This document shows positions 8,295 through 20,037 of a DNA stretch of 20,167 nucleotides, piece after piece (within the stretch, counting starts at the first letter, position 1; every line of letters begins with the position of its first letter). Origin of the DNA: a virus. Location of the stretch: positions 1 through 20,167 of the IMG/VR virus record IMGVR_UViG_3300037993_000261; one strand, given 5' to 3'. A program made the translations under genes and the position numbers. Under the pieces are notes generated by a model. The model saw only the letters and a program-made list of their open reading frames with translations. It was not told the origin of the DNA and did no database searches.

Positions 8295-10130
8295 TTACGC
8301 CGCAGCCGGCACATGCCGCACCAGGTAGCACTCCGTGTCAACCTCATTGAGCGGCGGGTGCCTCATCTTCCCTGACCAGCAGTGCCCAATGGGGTTGATT
8401 TGACCCTCCATGTCACCGCCAACCCAACGGCACTGGCACGTAGCACCGTGAGCGATGGTCATTGCCTCCAGATTGACCGCGTTGACCATGCGGGACATTT
8501 CATAGTTGCGACTGAACCTGGGGTTATCAGCCATTCTCTCAGCGGCAAACCCGATGTAGGCCGCCCGGAAGGTTTCCAGCTTGGCCGGGTCAATGGAATA
8601 CATGTTTGCGACCTTGTTGGTCACGGCCTGCGAGATGGAACACAGGTCGGTGGCAGGGTCACCCAGCACGGCTTCATCAAAGATGTTTTGAAGTTGCTCT
8701 TCGGGCGAGAGGATCGGGGTAGCCGGGCCTGGATCTGGGTTGGCCGGCTCGGCGACGGGGTCGGTGGGTGTCGCCGGGCTGTCATCGTCGGTGGGATCAG
8801 CGACAGGATCGGCGACGGGATCGGGGGCAGGATCAGGGGCAGGAGCAGGAGCTTGGGGTGTCTCCAGAGCCTTGATTTGTGCGGCCACCAGCAGGTTGTT
8901 GAGCCGCAGGCCCTCAAGTTTTAAGGCTTCAGCCTGCTCGGTGTACGCGGCAGATTGTACATTGACGGGAACCTGCCGGAAGTTACCACCATCGACAGTC
9001 TGAAGGTTCAATCGCTCGCGAGCCTCATTGATGGAGGTGACACCGTTTTTGAGCTGCGTGTCCATCGTGGTGGCCATGGTCGCGGAGTCAATCTGAATGA
9101 TCTTCTCGCGGTTGAATTCCACGTATAGGAACTCACGTTCGATCCCGCTGAATAGCTTCGCATTCAGCTCACGCTCAATCTGGCACAGGTTGGGGTTGAG
9201 GGAGGACTGGAGATAGTCGCGGTTGGCAGTCTCAGATGATGCGTACTTGTACGCCTCGACCACGCCCAGTTTCCACAACGGCAGGTTAATGATCTTGGCC
9301 GTGTCCCTCGTGCAATCCAGCTTTTGTTCGGCCAGCATCATTTCCTGTGGCGTCAGGTTGAGCGATTGGAACTTTGTACCCAGATCCAGGAAGGACATCT
9401 TCATGTCGTTGCCGATGATCTCGGGCGACTTACGGGCGAGTCGGAACATCTTTTTGAACCACGTGATGTTCTCTTTCTTCTTCTCAACAGTGACCTCCTG
9501 GTCGGAGGTGAGGTAGCCCGCGACGACACCGCCCCGGTTGTAGATATTTGAGATATAGGTGATGGTGTCAGAGTGGAGCCCAAGCACGGACTTGAAGCGG
9601 TCGCGGAGTGGGATGACATTGCCATGTTCGTCCTGGCTCTGCCACAGGTGGAGAACCTGTCCGTAGGAGTAATCATCCTTGATGTGGAGGGTTCTGGGGT
9701 CAAGACCTTGAGCCTTGCATTCATCGTCGGTGAGCAGCACGGCATAGCGGACAGTGCCGTCCATGGCGGTATACCTGATCGTGTAGCCGAATGGCAACAT
9801 CTTGAGTTGACCATCGGGGCAGATCAGGATGAAACACTCTCCAATGACCATCTGCATGCAGGCAGTCCGCCAGAAGGAATACCCGTTCTGTCCGTCGTTG
9901 GGCTGAGTGAACAGACGCCAGGCCAGTTGGGTTTCCTGCCTGACTCGGCCACCCAGTGTCTTTGCGTAGACATTGAGGGGTATCTGGGCCAGGTCGTTGC
10001 ACTTGATGTCAAGGGCTTGACTGAATGCCGGGAGTGCGAGCAGGTCCAGGCGGATGTCGCTATCCCAGTCGCCCTCCAGATTGCGGGCGACCTTGAACCT
10101 TATGCCGTTGATCGTGAATTCGGTTTTCAT
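8295..10130 (-). CDS. Portal protein with C-terminal MuF-like extension (611 aa)
   Basis: Residues 1 to about 425 form an HK97-type portal: LALPAFSQALDIKCNDLAQI near the N-terminus (the s-a-v-x-a-c-i-x-x-i-a-x-l motif), WRTACMQMVIGECFI, LHSDTI..., then a central PLWKLGVV and the typical late segment NGVTSINEARERLNLQTVDGG with the G-v-x-t-x-N-E-x-R motif. The dodecameric portal is the DNA entry gate at one capsid vertex. A Pro/Asp-rich linker of about 47 residues follows (PAPDPAPDPVADP repeats), then about 139 residues with TCQCRW (565-567) and HPPLNEVDTEC (591-601). That arrangement recalls the C-terminal motif of Mu F / SPP1 gp7 minor head proteins. ATG at 10130 has AGGGGCAC upstream. Confidence 0.9.
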   Translation of the reverse strand: MKTEFTINGIRFKVARNLEGDWDSDIRLDLLALPAFSQALDIKCNDLAQIPLNVYAKTLGGRVRQETQLAWRLFTQPNDGQNGYSFWRTACMQMVIGECFILICPDGQLKMLPFGYTIRYTAMDGTVRYAVLLTDDECKAQGLDPRTLHIKDDYSYGQVLHLWQSQDEHGNVIPLRDRFKSVLGLHSDTITYISNIYNRGGVVAGYLTSDQEVTVEKKKENITWFKKMFRLARKSPEIIGNDMKMSFLDLGTKFQSLNLTPQEMMLAEQKLDCTRDTAKIINLPLWKLGVVEAYKYASSETANRDYLQSSLNPNLCQIERELNAKLFSGIEREFLYVEFNREKIIQIDSATMATTMDTQLKNGVTSINEARERLNLQTVDGGNFRQVPVNVQSAAYTEQAEALKLEGLRLNNLLVAAQIKALETPQAPAPAPDPAPDPVADPVADPTDDDSPATPTDPVAEPANPDPGPATPILSPEEQLQNIFDEAVLGDPATDLCSISQAVTNKVANMYSIDPAKLETFRAAYIGFAAERMADNPRFSRNYEMSRMVNAVNLEAMTIAHGATCQCRWVGGDMEGQINPIGHCWSGKMRHPPLNEVDTECYLVRHVPAAA

Positions 10131-14172: not shown

Positions 14173-15213
14173 TTACGTTCCAACAAAAACTTGTCTGGTG
14201 TTGGGGTCCATCCATAGTTGGCATGTTCCATCTGCAGGATCTGAGCTGGGCAGGCCAGCAAGTTTCACGGGTCCATTGGCGGAGATGGCCTCGGTGGTCG
14301 TGCCCAGATGGGCGGAATAGCCGCTGCTCCCGCAATAGAACTGGCCGGCGATCACCGTGTTCGACAACGTCGCATTCGTGTTGCCGAGAGTCACGGAGAG
14401 CGTTCCACTGATGCCAGCAAATTTACCGGATGGGGCGATGGTCAGGTTGCCAAGCGCGTCAACGGCCATGTCCGTGTAGTTGGTTGCCGAGCCGTAACTG
14501 GCGTTGTTGCTTAATCGTAGACAGGTGCCAATGGCAGAATTGACCTCTAGCGACCTGGACGGGGCGGTGGTTCCGATGCCCACGGTGCCCTCAATTATCA
14601 TGTTGTTGGTTCCGGGGTCGAGGGCGTAATAATCGTGCCCAAACGAGAATCCACCGGTCGCCGATGTCCCCCACCGGTATGAATTGCTGGTCACGAAATA
14701 GAACGGATGGGCTGAAATAGTGCCCATATATGGCGAGGAACCCCACCCTGACCAGGCCGTCCAGGTTGAACCGTACCTCATGGACATGTTCGGAGCCCAG
14801 GTCCCAGTCGAATCCACATACCACATACGGGTGGTGTCGCTGTTGTTGCCGGCCAAAATGTCGGCAGCGATGCCGGAGGGCCAGGATGTTTTTGCGATTA
14901 GCGTTTTCGGGAATGTGAACGTCCCGATGGTGGTGTCGGGGATGGTTTGATCGCGGTGTAGGTAGATGCCGGTTGGAGCATCAGCACCGGCGGGACCAGT
15001 TGCACCCGTGGGGCCGGTTGCACCAGTTGCCCCGGTTGGACCGGTCAAACCTGTCGGACCTATCGGCCCCTGTGGGCCGGTGAATGATGATGCGGATGTG
15101 TTCACCCATTTTGCCAGCGTGGCCGAATAGGCGAGAAGTTGACCATCCGTGGGGGTGATCACGCCGACATCGCTGAGTCCGTCGATTCGATCAACTAAAC
15201 GGACTGCTGACAT
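14173..15213 (-). CDS. Tail fibre protein with collagen-like stalk (346 aa)
   Basis: The start at 15213 (MSAVRLVDRI) has AGGGGGC five bases upstream; the longer frame from 15432 overlaps the sigma-like gene and is rejected. Residues 1-44 form an N-terminal attachment segment (DGLSDVGVITPTDGQLLAYS, a motif frequent at the base of phage fibres). Residues 46-82 are a collagen-like Gly-X-Y run (GPQGPIGPTGLTGPTG...). The rest is a beta-rich shaft and tip with VGIGTTAPSRSLEVNSAIGT (about residues 225-245) and a terminal LWMDPNTRQVFVGT. Such proteins trimerise and bind the host surface. No S74 chaperone domain is present. Its place near the start of the late block, far from the tail genes, is unusual. 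Confidence 0.88.
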   Translation of the reverse strand: MSAVRLVDRIDGLSDVGVITPTDGQLLAYSATLAKWVNTSASSFTGPQGPIGPTGLTGPTGATGATGPTGATGPAGADAPTGIYLHRDQTIPDTTIGTFTFPKTLIAKTSWPSGIAADILAGNNSDTTRMWYVDSTGTWAPNMSMRYGSTWTAWSGWGSSPYMGTISAHPFYFVTSNSYRWGTSATGGFSFGHDYYALDPGTNNMIIEGTVGIGTTAPSRSLEVNSAIGTCLRLSNNASYGSATNYTDMAVDALGNLTIAPSGKFAGISGTLSVTLGNTNATLSNTVIAGQFYCGSSGYSAHLGTTTEAISANGPVKLAGLPSSDPADGTCQLWMDPNTRQVFVGT

Positions 15214-15292
15214 CGTGCCCCCTGGTGATAAAAGCGAACACAGCCGCCCCCCGGCGGCCATGTCTTCTAACTGATAGTACGCCAACCCCCCA

Positions 15293-15937
15293 TCACTCCA
15301 CGCCAGCATCGATGTCGACCGAGTCCATGATCCGCTGTCGAATCGCCGCCAGCTTCGCGGGGGTGCGATGTCGATGATGTATTCCACGCTCGGCACAAAT
15401 GGTCGACATACTCCGACCAGGGGCGACGTCAATCATCGCCCTGAATACCCTCGCCTGGTCCGCCGTCAGATACTTCTCAGGATTTGACCTAACATCTGCC
15501 GAGATGGCCTCGATGTTGCGATCTACACTGGTGTCGGTAGCGTGGAATGTTGATGTGTCGCCCGCCCGGAATTCAACCTCCCGATTCCTGGCTTCTGCCC
15601 TGGTTGCTGATCGAAGCTGGCTTGCGACAGCCCGGTTGATGACTGGATACAAATATGTGGCAACCTTCGTTTTGGCAGTTGCATCAAACCTGGGCAGTGC
15701 GTGTGTGGCCAGATGCACCCTTACCGCCTGGGCGACATCCTCGACCTGGTGCGGACACCTAATGTTTCGCCGCCTGATGGCCGCGTAGATCATGTCATCG
15801 ACGGATATGATCGCATCATTGATGGCGGCCCGGACCTTCTTCTCTTCGCCCGGCAGGGTGAGAAACGGAAAACGACGATCAGACATTGGTTTGAGCCGGT
15901 CCCCCGGTGGTACCTGTATTGATGTGTGAGTGGTCAT
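15293..15937 (-). CDS. Sigma-70 family-like RNA polymerase sigma factor (214 aa)
   Basis: The start at 15937 (MTTHTSIQVP) is preceded by AGGGG six bases upstream; the frame extends to 16081 but that overlaps the upstream gene. Residues 63-110 look like sigma region 2: VEDVAQAVRVHLATHALPRFD, then KVATYLYPVINRAVASQLRS, the D-v-x-Q-x-v-x-x-x-l...p-x-F-d...f-x-t-y-l-y-x-v-x-x-N-x-x-x-x-x-l-R pattern of ECF-type sigmas. Residues 157-205 form a region 4-like helix-turn-helix (LTADQARVFRAMI ... ICAERGI ... AIRQRIMDS). It could direct host polymerase to late promoters. The fit is by eye and divergent, especially in the region 4 recognition helix, which is rich in His. Confidence 0.7.
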   Translation of the reverse strand: MTTHTSIQVPPGDRLKPMSDRRFPFLTLPGEEKKVRAAINDAIISVDDMIYAAIRRRNIRCPHQVEDVAQAVRVHLATHALPRFDATAKTKVATYLYPVINRAVASQLRSATRAEARNREVEFRAGDTSTFHATDTSVDRNIEAISADVRSNPEKYLTADQARVFRAMIDVAPGRSMSTICAERGIHHRHRTPAKLAAIRQRIMDSVDIDAGVE

Positions 15938-15980: not shown

Positions 15981-16340
15981 TCAAATGAGTGGGTGGACCG
16001 GGTAGGCCCATGACCACCGATACCCGCCGGCGGTTTGCAGCTTACCATTGGCGGCGAGTCGGATACTACCACGATCGACACCGGTGATCGCCGCCGCCTC
16101 GTTGATGGAGGCGTATCGCATTGTGATCAGGCCCTCTGAATCGAGTTGATATACCGCCTTCCTGCCGGGGCGGTTGTACTCGCGATGGATCAGATGATCG
16201 ATTTGAGCGGCCGGGGTTGGTGCCGGGGCCGCCGGTGCAAGAGGCGGGACAACGACCCCTGGTGTCGGCGGTGCCAGGTCCTCCAGATCGGTGGTGATGG
16301 TTTCGGTCACGGTGACGCGGGTGATCGTGGTGTGTTTCAT
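15981..16340 (-). CDS. NUMOD1-like DNA-binding protein without nuclease domain (119 aa)
   Basis: Residues 1-20 are Thr-rich (TTITRVTVTETITTD), followed by a Pro/Ala-rich linker (28-46) and a C-terminal domain at 62-111. The latter reads AVYQLDSEGLITMRYASINE, AAAITGVDRGSIRLAANGK, GGYRWSW, which is the NUMOD1 pattern (v-y-x-l-d-x-x-g-x-i-x-x-f-x-S-i-x-e-A-a-x-x-t-g-v-x-x-x-x-I-x-x-a-x-x-g-k-x-x-x-a-g-G-y-x-W). NUMOD1 modules are helix-turn-helix DNA-binding units normally attached to homing endonucleases. No HNH or GIY-YIG part is present here, so this may be a stand-alone regulator or a fragment. No clear ribosome site precedes the ATG at 16340. It lies just before the sigma-like gene. Confidence 0.75.
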   Translation of the reverse strand: MKHTTITRVTVTETITTDLEDLAPPTPGVVVPPLAPAAPAPTPAAQIDHLIHREYNRPGRKAVYQLDSEGLITMRYASINEAAAITGVDRGSIRLAANGKLQTAGGYRWSWAYPVHPLI

Positions 16341-16980: not shown

Positions 16981-17022
16981 ACCCGCCCGGACATGCCTCT
17001 CACCATGTTCGGGCGGGTTTTT
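16981..17022 (+). terminator. Intrinsic terminator / attenuator hairpin in the initiator leader
   Basis: A 15-bp stem (ACCCGCCCGGACATG with CATGTTCGGGCGGGT, one G-U pair) closes an eight-base loop (CCTCTCAC) and runs into TTTTT. It is a strong rightward rho-independent terminator. It ends 23 bp before the initiator ATG, with no gene between the hairpin and the candidate promoter, so it would either end a small leader RNA or act as an attenuator. It has no T-run on the minus strand. Confidence 0.85.
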
Positions 17023-17045
17023 CATTCCCGATTGGAGCGTGCAAC

Positions 17046-18515
17046 ATGAAACGTGATGAACTACTGGAGCCCGGGATGTTCGCCAGCGTCCCCAAAACCG
17101 TCCTGGCGGATAGACGACTGTCGTTCGCCGCGAAATGCACCTACGCCGCAATGCTAGACAGGATTGGGCAGAGTGAAAATGTCCACTACCCGGCCGAACA
17201 GTACGCAATGGACATCGGCGGCTGTCGGGAAACGGTGGTTATTGCCCTTGAGCAGCTCCGAAAATATCGCTATATCACCACCGGTGAGTTCACGCGACAC
17301 GGCACTGCGGTGTATGTGTTGATGCCGATTGAGCAGACCGGGGGGGTGATCTACACCAGCAAACGCGAACGATCCAGGCGGTCAGATGATGAAAAACCCG
17401 ACACACAGTGTGGAAAAACCCGACACCATCCACTGGAAATCAGTTGTGGAAAAACCCGACACACAGTGATGAAAAACCCGACACACAGTGATGAAAAACC
17501 CGACACACAGTGTGGAAAAACCCGACACACAGTGATGAAAAACCCGACCGTAACTAACGATATTACTAACGATAGTACTAACGAGGGAACTAACGAAGGA
17601 ACAATTTGCGGGCCTGCGGCCCCTCCTTCTCGCTCGTGCAATGATGAGATAGGAACACTAGAAAAGAGATCTCTGAGTATCACCCATCCAGATCTCATTC
17701 CACCCGCTCATCCCCAACAACCCGAAGGGCAGCATCCAGGTTCCATTCAACCCGCTCATCCCCAACAACCCGAAGGGCAGCATCCAGGTTCCATTCAACC
17801 CGCTCATCCCCAACAACCCGAAGGGAAGCAATTGCCGGTATTCACATCAACCATCACCACCCCCGCCTCACCAGCCGTGCGGGGGCAAACCCACAAGGCC
17901 GCCAAGGCCAGGAGGGCGGCCAAACCATCCCCATCCACCAATCCGCCGACAGTGGCCACCACATCGACCGGGGTGGCCATCCCATCTGGACCAGACGCTA
18001 GAATTATGGCCTGCCAGGATCTGGCTCATTTGGAACTCTATTTGAGATATGGTGCCATCGGGATGGTGGAGGTCGACAAATCCCGGCTCGCGGACCTGCC
18101 CGACAGTCCTGCACTCGGAAAATCGGTAACCGCCGATAGCACCCACAAACCCAGCCAGGTTTCCAAATACATTGTAACCATCACCAACCAGGCCCGGGTC
18201 GCCCGCGATCTGCCGATCATCCTACCCGACGATTGGGGCCGCGTGGTGAGGTCCGTTAAAACCCTGATCAATGAGATCGGCCCCACCGCGACGGCCGAAA
18301 GAGCTAGGAACATTTGTATATGGTGGGACCTAATCTCCTCCGAACTGCGATGGATGACACCACCACCCGAGCTTAACGAGCTGGTGTTGTCCAAAAAACC
18401 CATCATGGATGCCGCTAGGAGATACGAATCAATGCCGCCCGACACCATCAACGAGATGCTAGAGGTCGCCCAGGGTGATGGCGAAATTTCCGAGGAAGAA
18501 CTCTATAACTATTGA
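17046..18515 (+). CDS. Replication initiator-like protein with internal iterons (489 aa)
   Basis: ATG at 17046 has GGAG eight bases upstream. Residues 1-95 form a winged-helix domain: FASVPKTVLADRRLSFAAKC, then YPAEQYAMDIGGCRETVVIA, LEQLRKYRYITTGEF, as in N-terminal domains of phage replication (lambda O-like) proteins. Residues 115-167 are encoded by the 22-bp DNA repeats and are low complexity, as are NDITNDSTNEGTNEG (about 170-184) and the 16-residue repeats at 218-262. The C-terminal domain (about 320-489) is helical and acidic at its end (GDGEISEEELYNY), a possible helicase-loading surface by analogy to O proteins. The DnaB-like helicase gene follows after 22 bp. Initiator function is inferred from domain, neighbour and embedded repeats. 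Confidence 0.75.
   Translation: MKRDELLEPGMFASVPKTVLADRRLSFAAKCTYAAMLDRIGQSENVHYPAEQYAMDIGGCRETVVIALEQLRKYRYITTGEFTRHGTAVYVLMPIEQTGGVIYTSKRERSRRSDDEKPDTQCGKTRHHPLEISCGKTRHTVMKNPTHSDEKPDTQCGKTRHTVMKNPTVTNDITNDSTNEGTNEGTICGPAAPPSRSCNDEIGTLEKRSLSITHPDLIPPAHPQQPEGQHPGSIQPAHPQQPEGQHPGSIQPAHPQQPEGKQLPVFTSTITTPASPAVRGQTHKAAKARRAAKPSPSTNPPTVATTSTGVAIPSGPDARIMACQDLAHLELYLRYGAIGMVEVDKSRLADLPDSPALGKSVTADSTHKPSQVSKYIVTITNQARVARDLPIILPDDWGRVVRSVKTLINEIGPTATAERARNICIWWDLISSELRWMTPPPELNELVLSKKPIMDAARRYESMPPDTINEMLEVAQGDGEISEEELYNY
17388..17550 (+). repeat. Seven direct repeats with 22-bp period (candidate iterons / replication origin)
   Basis: AAAAACCCGAC begins at 17392, 17414, 17450, 17472, 17494, 17516 and 17538. 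Spacings are 22, 36, 22, 22, 22 and 22. The full unit is about GAAAAACCCGACACACAGTG plus two bases (AT or TG). Copies 1, 5 read DEKPDTQ; copies 2, 3, 6 read CGKTRH; copies 4, 7 read MKNPT, so one DNA repeat is used in all three frames. Some junctions form the 11-bp palindrome CACACAGTGTG. Confidence 0.9.
17551..17600 (+). repeat. Four AT-rich 12-bp direct repeats next to the iterons (possible unwinding element)
   Basis: ACTAACGA occurs at 17553, 17565, 17577 and 17589, exactly 12 bp apart, starting right after the last 22-bp repeat. The unit keeps the reading frame (TND, TND, TNE, TNE). In iteron origins an AT-rich repeated stretch commonly lies beside the initiator sites and is where strands open. 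Confidence 0.7.
17702..17829 (+). repeat. 48-bp direct repeats, 2.7 copies, in frame
   Basis: ACCCGCTCATCCCC begins at 17702, 17750 and 17798. The near-identical 48-bp units encode PAHPQQPEGQHPGSIQ twice plus a partial third copy. Because the period is a multiple of three, this could be a simple protein linker expansion rather than a DNA site. The near-absence of base differences suggests recent duplication. Confidence 0.85.
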
Positions 18516-18537: not shown

Positions 18538-20037
18538 ATGTCCGACACACAAACTCAATTTCGTCCCGTCATTGACGACAATCTATTCCTACGGGAGGAG
18601 GCACAATTGTACGCTCCGGGGTCGGAGCGTGCCATCCTCGCACTCATCGTCAAATGCCCGCAGCTAATTGTTGAGGTGGAGCGGCTGATACCCGTGGAAT
18701 GGTTCATGGGTGAACTCAACATCCGCATGTACAAAATTCTGCTGTTCGTATACGGGTACTGCACCACCAATGGATGGCCCCTCGCCTTTGACGCGGTGAC
18801 CGTCCTGAATGTCGCCCGGCAGATGGGGCCGCAATACGAGGCATCATTTTGTCGCAATATGGACGGTCTCGATAAGTGGAATCAGCTCGTCGAATTCGCG
18901 AAATATGTTGCACTCGATGCCCTTCCCCAGCATCTGGCCACATTGCGTGAGGCAGCGGCCCAGGTATTGACATTTCGGCTGCTCCGCGACACCCGTAAGA
19001 CCATCACCAGCGGCATTGACAATTTCATGGGGCCCCTAATGATGGGACTCGATAAAATTCGACAGGCCTGTGCCGGCGTGGCCGAACCGACGCTCCTGGA
19101 CGGTGCCAAGGCATTTTTGGACGACGACAGCTACTCCCGGCGGATATCCATATCAACATTCCCACGGTTCAGTCAACTACTGGGAGGATTCCGCCCTGGG
19201 TCATTGACGATCATGGCCGGCCGTACAAAGGCCGGAAAATCTGTGTTCATTGCTAAATCGTCGCTCGGCCTGGCCCGGAGCGGGATCCCCGTGTTATACC
19301 TAGATAGCGAAATGGATTCGCTACAGGTCGGCGGCAGGAAAATCCAAATGATTTCGGGGCTGACCGAGCGGGAATTGCACGACCCCGCCAATGCCGCCAG
19401 ACGCGATACGGCCCTCGCCCAGATGTCTGAAATCTCAAAGCTGGTTGACTACCGGGTGGTGGCCGGGATGACCACCGATCAGATTTGCATGGCCATAAAC
19501 GACTTCCGGCAGAAAATTGGAAACGGTACACGCGGGATCGTGATTTTGGACTGGCTCCGCGTCATGGACGCGAATGACACCAGAACACCGGAGCACGTGG
19601 CGCTGGGACGGATCACAACCGCCCTGAAAACGGTGGCGGGTCAAACGGGGTTGGCCATTATCGCCGCCACGCAACAATCCCGGGCGGCAATCGGAGCGAC
19701 CCACACACAGAAAAAAAACGATGCGGTCGGGTTCATCGCCGGCAGCGATCGAATCGCCCAATTGTCTTCAGCGCTGTGTCATATCAGAGCCGTTGATGAG
19801 GCGATGGCGGACGCAATACTGGAGAGGTTCGGATCGGTGAGGTTCACGACGATAATTTCCATTGATGCAAACCGTCATGGCGAGGGCCATTTGTCGGTAC
19901 CCGCGATGTTCGACGGATCACGAATGCTGCTTGAGGAAATTGATGATCCGGAGGTGACCGAGTTTCTTGCCACCTATTCGGAAAAGAAGAAGAAACAAAC
20001 TGTGAGGCTGAGGGCGATAGACGCTAACGGCATGTAG
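18538..20037 (+). CDS. DnaB-type replicative helicase (499 aa)
   Basis: ATG at 18538 (MSDTQTQFRP) is preceded by AAAAAGGGG; the longer frame from 18475 overlaps the initiator gene and lacks a ribosome site. The N-terminal part (residues 20-150) resembles the DnaB N-domain: APGSERAILALIVKCPQLIV, EWFMGELNIRMYKILL. The RecA-like core has Walker A GRTKAGKS (228-235), then LYLDSEMDS, Walker B GIVILDW with Asp 338, and AIIAATQQSR (sensor-like Q motif). The C-terminus is Lys-rich (SEKKKKQTVRLRA). It unwinds the replication fork as a hexamer, probably loaded by the initiator encoded upstream. Size and domain order are normal for DnaB-like phage helicases. Confidence 0.92.
   Translation: MSDTQTQFRPVIDDNLFLREEAQLYAPGSERAILALIVKCPQLIVEVERLIPVEWFMGELNIRMYKILLFVYGYCTTNGWPLAFDAVTVLNVARQMGPQYEASFCRNMDGLDKWNQLVEFAKYVALDALPQHLATLREAAAQVLTFRLLRDTRKTITSGIDNFMGPLMMGLDKIRQACAGVAEPTLLDGAKAFLDDDSYSRRISISTFPRFSQLLGGFRPGSLTIMAGRTKAGKSVFIAKSSLGLARSGIPVLYLDSEMDSLQVGGRKIQMISGLTERELHDPANAARRDTALAQMSEISKLVDYRVVAGMTTDQICMAINDFRQKIGNGTRGIVILDWLRVMDANDTRTPEHVALGRITTALKTVAGQTGLAIIAATQQSRAAIGATHTQKKNDAVGFIAGSDRIAQLSSALCHIRAVDEAMADAILERFGSVRFTTIISIDANRHGEGHLSVPAMFDGSRMLLEEIDDPEVTEFLATYSEKKKKQTVRLRAIDANGM

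Follow-up and report, generated by a model that had tools for sequence, protein, structure and literature searches.

A 22-bp repeat translated in three reading frames within a phage initiator gene, a predicted replication origin

How does a gene come to carry seven exact copies of one DNA word that its ribosomes would read as three different peptides, and what does that word do? The question is raised by an ORF in the window analyzed here, one whole IMG/VR virus record of 20,167 bp. A preliminary description of this DNA had proposed that the repeats form a phage origin inside the gene of its own initiator, and we addressed this proposal by examining the array and the encoded protein, by surveying related initiators, and by comparison with replication systems already described.

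Results

A 22-bp array followed by unstable DNA

Direct reading, repeat finding, TRF, and scripts all returned seven exact copies of GAAAAACCCGAC, which lie on the + strand, span 17391-17548, and follow one another at 22, 36, 22, 22, 22, and 22 bp (Table 1); the coordinates, copy number, 22-bp spacing, single 36-bp gap, and three peptides initially described were right. Five of the seven copies extend to GAAAAACCCGACACACAGTG. GAAAAACCCGAC does not occur in the rest of the 20,167-bp record, and the 19-mer AAAAACCCGACACACAGTG, present five times, is confined to the array in the whole record even when three mismatches are allowed. The exact pair AAAAACCCGAC-N11-AAAAACCCGAC was absent from other IMG/VR contigs. 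Counted from the ORF start, the copies fall in all three reading frames, with EKP, GKT, and KNP as the three readings of the array core. Among 1000 Markov-1 shuffles of the ORF, none contained any 12-mer three or more times, and the seven-copy array is therefore not due to chance.

Of all 50-bp stretches in the ORF, the one immediately downstream of the last iteron is the least stable, and it ranks 38 of 20,116 for low stability in the record. It holds a 12-bp in-frame tandem array (3.7 copies at 17553-17596 by TRF) with four ACTAACGAnnnn repeats, and we presume it to be the DNA unwinding element. The 48-bp tandem repeat in the same linker probably does not belong to the origin; its copies are near-identical and, unlike the 22-bp array, it keeps one frame.

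Table 1 Features of the initiator gene and the adjoining helicase gene. Iteron starts are the starts of the GAAAAACCCGAC copies, and phases are relative to the initiator ORF start.
Feature	Position	Strand	Basis or reading
Initiator ORF, 489 aa: winged helix, repeat-encoded linker, C-terminal region	17046..18515	+	ORF call, PHROG
Winged helix-turn-helix, ~aa 10-92, presumed iteron-binding domain	17073..17321	+	hhalign, AF2, Foldseek
Iteron 1, GAAAAACCCGACACACAGTGTG	17391..17412	+	Phase 0 (EKP); DEKPDTQ
Iteron 2, partial, retains GAAAAACCCGACAC alone	17413..17426	+	Phase 1 (GKT); CGKTRH(H); interruption follows, giving the 36-bp interval
Iteron 3	17449..17470	+	Phase 1 (GKT); CGKTRHT
Iteron 4	17471..17492	+	Phase 2 (KNP); VMKNPTHS
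Iteron 5	17493..17514	+	Phase 0 (EKP); DEKPDTQ
Iteron 6	17515..17536	+	Phase 1 (GKT); CGKTRHT
Iteron 7, 12-bp core alone	17537..17548	+	Phase 2 (KNP); VMKNPT
Presumed DNA unwinding element, 12-bp repeats ACTAACGATATT/ACTAACGATAGT/ACTAACGAGGGA/ACTAACGAAGGA	17551..17601	+	Stability, TRF period 12
48-bp x3 in-frame tandem repeat PAHPQQPEGQHPGSIQ, same linker	17685..17830	+	Repeat finding, TRF
C-terminal region, aa 320-489, presumed helicase/primase contact	18003..18512	+	AF2 without alignment, mean pLDDT 37
DnaB-type replicative helicase	18541..20037	+	Pfam DnaB_C E 1.3e-16; phrog_19 E 1.8e-34

The encoded protein is a predicted, divergent winged-helix initiator next to a helicase gene

The array-bearing ORF matched two PHROG families, both through its N-terminal part: phrog_186, a DnaD-like helicase loader (E 2.5e-5), and phrog_270, a replication initiation protein (E 0.0099). 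Pfam and NCBIfam gave no match above their cut-offs. By hhalign, a profile of 20 phage/prophage initiators aligned with residues 10-78 (E 6.8e-6, probability 84.6), and AlphaFold (AF2) modeled the N terminus as a winged helix-turn-helix with block pLDDT of 80-92 over most of the HTH. Among the best named viral fold matches from Foldseek were a RepA-like replication initiator, proteins of the replication initiator A family, and a replisome organizer; its matches in the PDB, at modest E-values, included CodY and the N-terminal domains of the plasmid Rep/initiator proteins 5kbj (a Rep-DNA complex), 4pql, 4pt7, and 4pta. PHROG, hhalign, AF2, and Foldseek thus bear out the initiator-like winged helix first noticed from the letters. 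The domain is divergent; it is ~20% identical to the HTH_36-type family, below every Pfam cut-off, and 25 of the 27 alignment members match HTH_36 whereas the window does not. Pfam RepA_N scored 13 bits on the window protein against a gathering cut-off of 30.

We found no direct orthologs by tblastn in phages, using the whole protein or its N terminus up to E 10, and none in IMG/VR or in GTDB genomes. Four phages share the window's terminase at 46-49% identity and have no detectable copy of the initiator or of DnaB. In one of them (L048:6676-7914, - strand), a protein begins with LEPLERREFLA, a motif that resembles secretion/anchoring signals of planctomycetes and hints at a planctomycete host.

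The DnaB helicase gene expected after the initiator was there, with a start at ATG 18541 and GTG 18475 also possible. No helicase loader gene was identified. Cumulative GC skew peaks near 17.5 kb, but this peak coincides with the coding-strand switch, and we gave it no weight. Elsewhere in the record, a small - strand ORF (15981-16340) has weak NUMOD1 / I-HmuI NUMOD-like similarity below Pfam cut-offs, and a long - strand ORF (14173-15432) with a collagen-like GPTGATGATGPTG stretch and 18-bp repeats probably encodes a tail fibre.

A core word of the array recurs in the linkers of other phage initiators

We were concerned that the array might be nothing other than a recent neutral tandem duplication, a functionless 22-bp unit grown by slippage in a disordered and unconstrained linker. 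The copies are nearly identical, which fits recent expansion, and the 48-bp x3 in-frame and 12-bp arrays occupy the same linker, which indicates that slippage is active there. Against this, the repeats stayed exact across the 36-bp interruption. Because one genome cannot separate selection from recent duplication, we surveyed winged-helix initiators drawn from phage records found via TP901-1 Rep, 80 IMG/VR loci, 24 actinobacterial GTDB loci, and two PaV-LD-like loci. The resulting set comprised 43 non-redundant phage/prophage initiators with linkers <60% identical, and Streptomyces-like chromosomal homologs were treated as non-phage contrasts. The surveyed proteins share a layout of winged helix, linker with ENP, EKP, GKT, or DFP/GFP peptides, Thr/Asn-rich stretch, and C-terminal domain.

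We ranked all 9,835 observed linker words of the shape XXXXXNXX; both this shape and the core word itself had been picked out by eye in a few genes ahead of the ranking. The most widespread was GAAAANCC, found in 26 of 43 linkers but outside the linker in 4 of the 43 genes. Among the 31 such words in the window's unit it was far ahead of the others. It tied for first within actinobacteria and ranked second within the firmicute-like loci, behind ACTAANTA, a word of the unwinding block. In 300 shuffles, the actinobacterial count of 15 compared with a shuffle mean of 1.1 (maximum 5), and the firmicute-like count of 38 with a mean of 2.2 (maximum 8, and <=10 under either shuffle), although most of these firmicute copies share a single frame, so that conservation of the peptide could play a part, and the sequences are related. 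The exact word was absent from the linkers of the two PaV-LD-like (cyanophage-type) initiators, and the core was absent from the weakly scoring Streptomyces-like homologs. The repeat was not recognized in the preliminary description, but it is not wholly new, since many phage initiators share its core.

The word occurs in phase 0 (ENP/EKP) in 23 initiators, in phase 1 (GKT) in four, and on the opposite strand in four. Glu was encoded by GAA in 12 of 12 actinobacterial ENP/EKP copies, versus 119 of 297 Glu codons (40%) elsewhere in the same genes (Fisher p 2.5e-5). The same test on firmicute copies was not significant, as expected because GAA is already the common codon there. Since frames, strands, and peptides vary around GAAAANCC, we conclude that the DNA word itself is kept. 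The preliminary description had reasoned that protein-level selection could not produce the array and that DNA must be the conserved entity; the reasoning was incomplete, as neutral duplication mimics such a pattern in a single genome, but its conclusion agrees with a DNA word kept across the survey.

The low-stability block recurs as well. In 23 of 27 core-bearing initiators, the window included, the least stable DNA begins 0-90 bp past the last core, where 3.2 would be expected, and the firmicute sequences at that position are ACTAAATAATAATACTAAT-like. Neutral expansion gives no reason to expect, as the array's core, the most widespread linker word of other phage initiators, nor does neutrality sit well with the array's place directly before the least stable DNA, a placement shared with 22 other genes; we consider functionless slippage improbable.

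Spacing is less uniform. The window has seven GAAAANCC copies at 22/36 bp, whereas firmicute members commonly, though not invariably, space theirs by 15 bp in frame. The earlier suggestion that a period near two helical turns sets the copies on one face of the helix does not hold as a rule, with related initiators mostly using multiples of 15 bp and PaV-LD using 14 bp. In the Planktothrix phage PaV-LD, a 14-bp tandem repeat, ACGGACAAACCGTC x 3.4, lies at 477-524 of the initiator gene; its period is not a multiple of 3 and the array is followed by TNDELINDLS, as in the window. Two actinobacterial loci (L183 and L184) encode, in one ORF of ~507-538 aa, two tandem initiator-type winged helices with no GAAAANCC in the scanned linker.

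The region upstream of the initiator gene

Beyond the coding sequence, 16981-17025 holds a strong terminator-like hairpin, whose 15-pair stem at 16981-17018 leads into a T-run that stops ~20 bp short of the start codon of the initiator; it could reflect a short transcript from upstream or antitermination. Searches for Rfam families, tRNAs, and consensus sigma-70 promoters gave nothing that explains the region. Within the T-run, at 17014-17025, lies a reverse-oriented 12-bp iteron match, ATGAAAAACCCG. A site so close to the start codon could point to a different role for the repeats, in which bound initiator would chiefly serve autoregulation or the pairing of copies, the repeats being an operator or a site for incompatibility or copy control and not mainly an origin. 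However, the match overlaps an ordinary terminator, the word was found within 150 bp upstream in 0 of the other 43 surveyed initiators, and the low-stability block next to the array is a trait of origins. We therefore regard a mainly regulatory role as very unlikely, and autoregulation through an upstream reverse match was rejected as a family-wide explanation.

Comparison with known initiator-embedded origins

The traits of an embedded origin are found together in the window: direct repeats inside the ORF, an adjoining easily melted element, a DNA-binding N-terminal domain, and a helicase gene next door. Its closest points of comparison are phage initiators whose origins lie in their own genes. 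The 80alpha record annotates a rep_origin at 9674-9899 within the initiator gene, and for 80alpha ORF20 complementation in trans failed, while ORF20 together with ORF21 was necessary and sufficient for autonomous replication (PMC5499656). Like the window, ORF20 combines a winged helix, GGAAAAACC-type repeats, an AT-rich ACTAAT block, a C-terminal domain, and an origin in the gene, and its linker reads NGKTVNGKTNNGKTVNGKS. It differs in its 15/30-bp in-frame spacing, in using the GKT frame only, and in having a DnaC-type loader as partner rather than a DnaB helicase. TP901-1 ORF13 (Rep) and Tuc2009 ORF16 (Rep2009) bind direct repeats in their own genes, which are reported as ori (PMC8965321). 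TP901-1 resembles the window in having TTTTCC repeats (the reverse complement of GGAAAA) followed by a ACTAAATACTAATA block, whereas its copies are 15-bp, in-frame, and on the opposite strand.

The likeness to lambda O that had been drawn, an origin inside the initiator gene, stands: four annotated iterons (39034, 39054, 39078, and 39101) lie within O, which starts at 38686. Their spacings of 20, 24, and 23 bp put them in all three phases, and frame rotation alone is therefore not new. Lambda differs from the window in its iteron sequence and in its partner, the loader P, and the likeness seen here is one of layout. SPP1 oriL, with direct repeats and an AT-rich unwinding element inside gene 38 and the DnaB-type gp40 in the same module (PMC6316719), shares the layout of iterons plus unwinding element, as compared by published description; SPP1 differs in encoding a loader, gp39, and in having a second origin.

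Among plasmids, the winged helix of pSK41 Rep binds four boxes in its own rep gene, with the A+T tract of the box needed for full binding; the central segment encoded by the ori is a linker, and Rep from which this segment has been deleted in frame still sustains replication from a functional ori (PMC5703833). A dispensable linker of this kind would account for the translation of a 22-bp site in all three frames. It also weighs against the notion that selection keeps the repeats at the protein level, as a linker of repeated peptides. Many of the firmicute relatives do encode ENPxx-type peptides by 15-bp in-frame repeats, but the notion is scarcely credible here, where one DNA repeat yields three unrelated peptides, relatives carry GAAAANCC in differing frames and strands, and a synonymous codon position is invariant in the actinobacterial copies. 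RepA_N plasmid initiators differ in that the window is a phage and its RepA_N score is under the cut-off. The Rep_3 iteron plasmid type, with 22-bp iterons upstream of rep, was rejected, as there was no Rep_3 match and the repeats lie inside the ORF.

Discussion

Taken together, the repeats, the adjacent low-stability block, the DnaB gene, and the shared core and layout support the proposal of an origin within the initiator gene, as a prediction from sequence. We conclude that the array very probably constitutes the initiator-binding iterons of a phage replication origin situated inside the gene for that same initiator. The window is a divergent member of the known class of initiator-embedded origins.

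From this arrangement we infer binding, melting, helicase recruitment, and origin activity, which could proceed as follows. The N-terminal winged helix would bind each GAAAAACCCGAC(ACACAGTG) site, and the initiator would oligomerize along the seven-site array. The adjoining low-stability ACTAACGA repeats would then melt, and the C-terminal part, with host or phage loader factors, would place the DnaB-type helicase, the product of the adjacent gene, on the opened strand. In the protein, the repeats would be translated into a passive linker, which would leave one DNA site free to be read in three frames.

A broader reading, for which we see the case as evenly balanced, is that a single origin code of ancient date is common to winged-helix phage initiators of several phyla: a GAAAANCC core plus an ACTAA-type unwinding block located in the gene and independent of frame and strand, of which the window would be a 22-bp, fully frame-rotating version. 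We found no earlier description of an iteron core shared across phyla, in literature largely without subscription papers, and such a common core may be what is new here.

These results locate, to the base, the predicted origin of an uncultured and very divergent phage, and the survey suggests that a short DNA word and an adjoining unwinding block recur in the initiator genes of phages across phyla. If this is true, origins would be predictable from sequence alone for many uncultured phages, and the odd ENP/EKP/GKT repeats in phage proteins labeled 'DnaD-like' or 'HTH' would be explained as translated binding sites.
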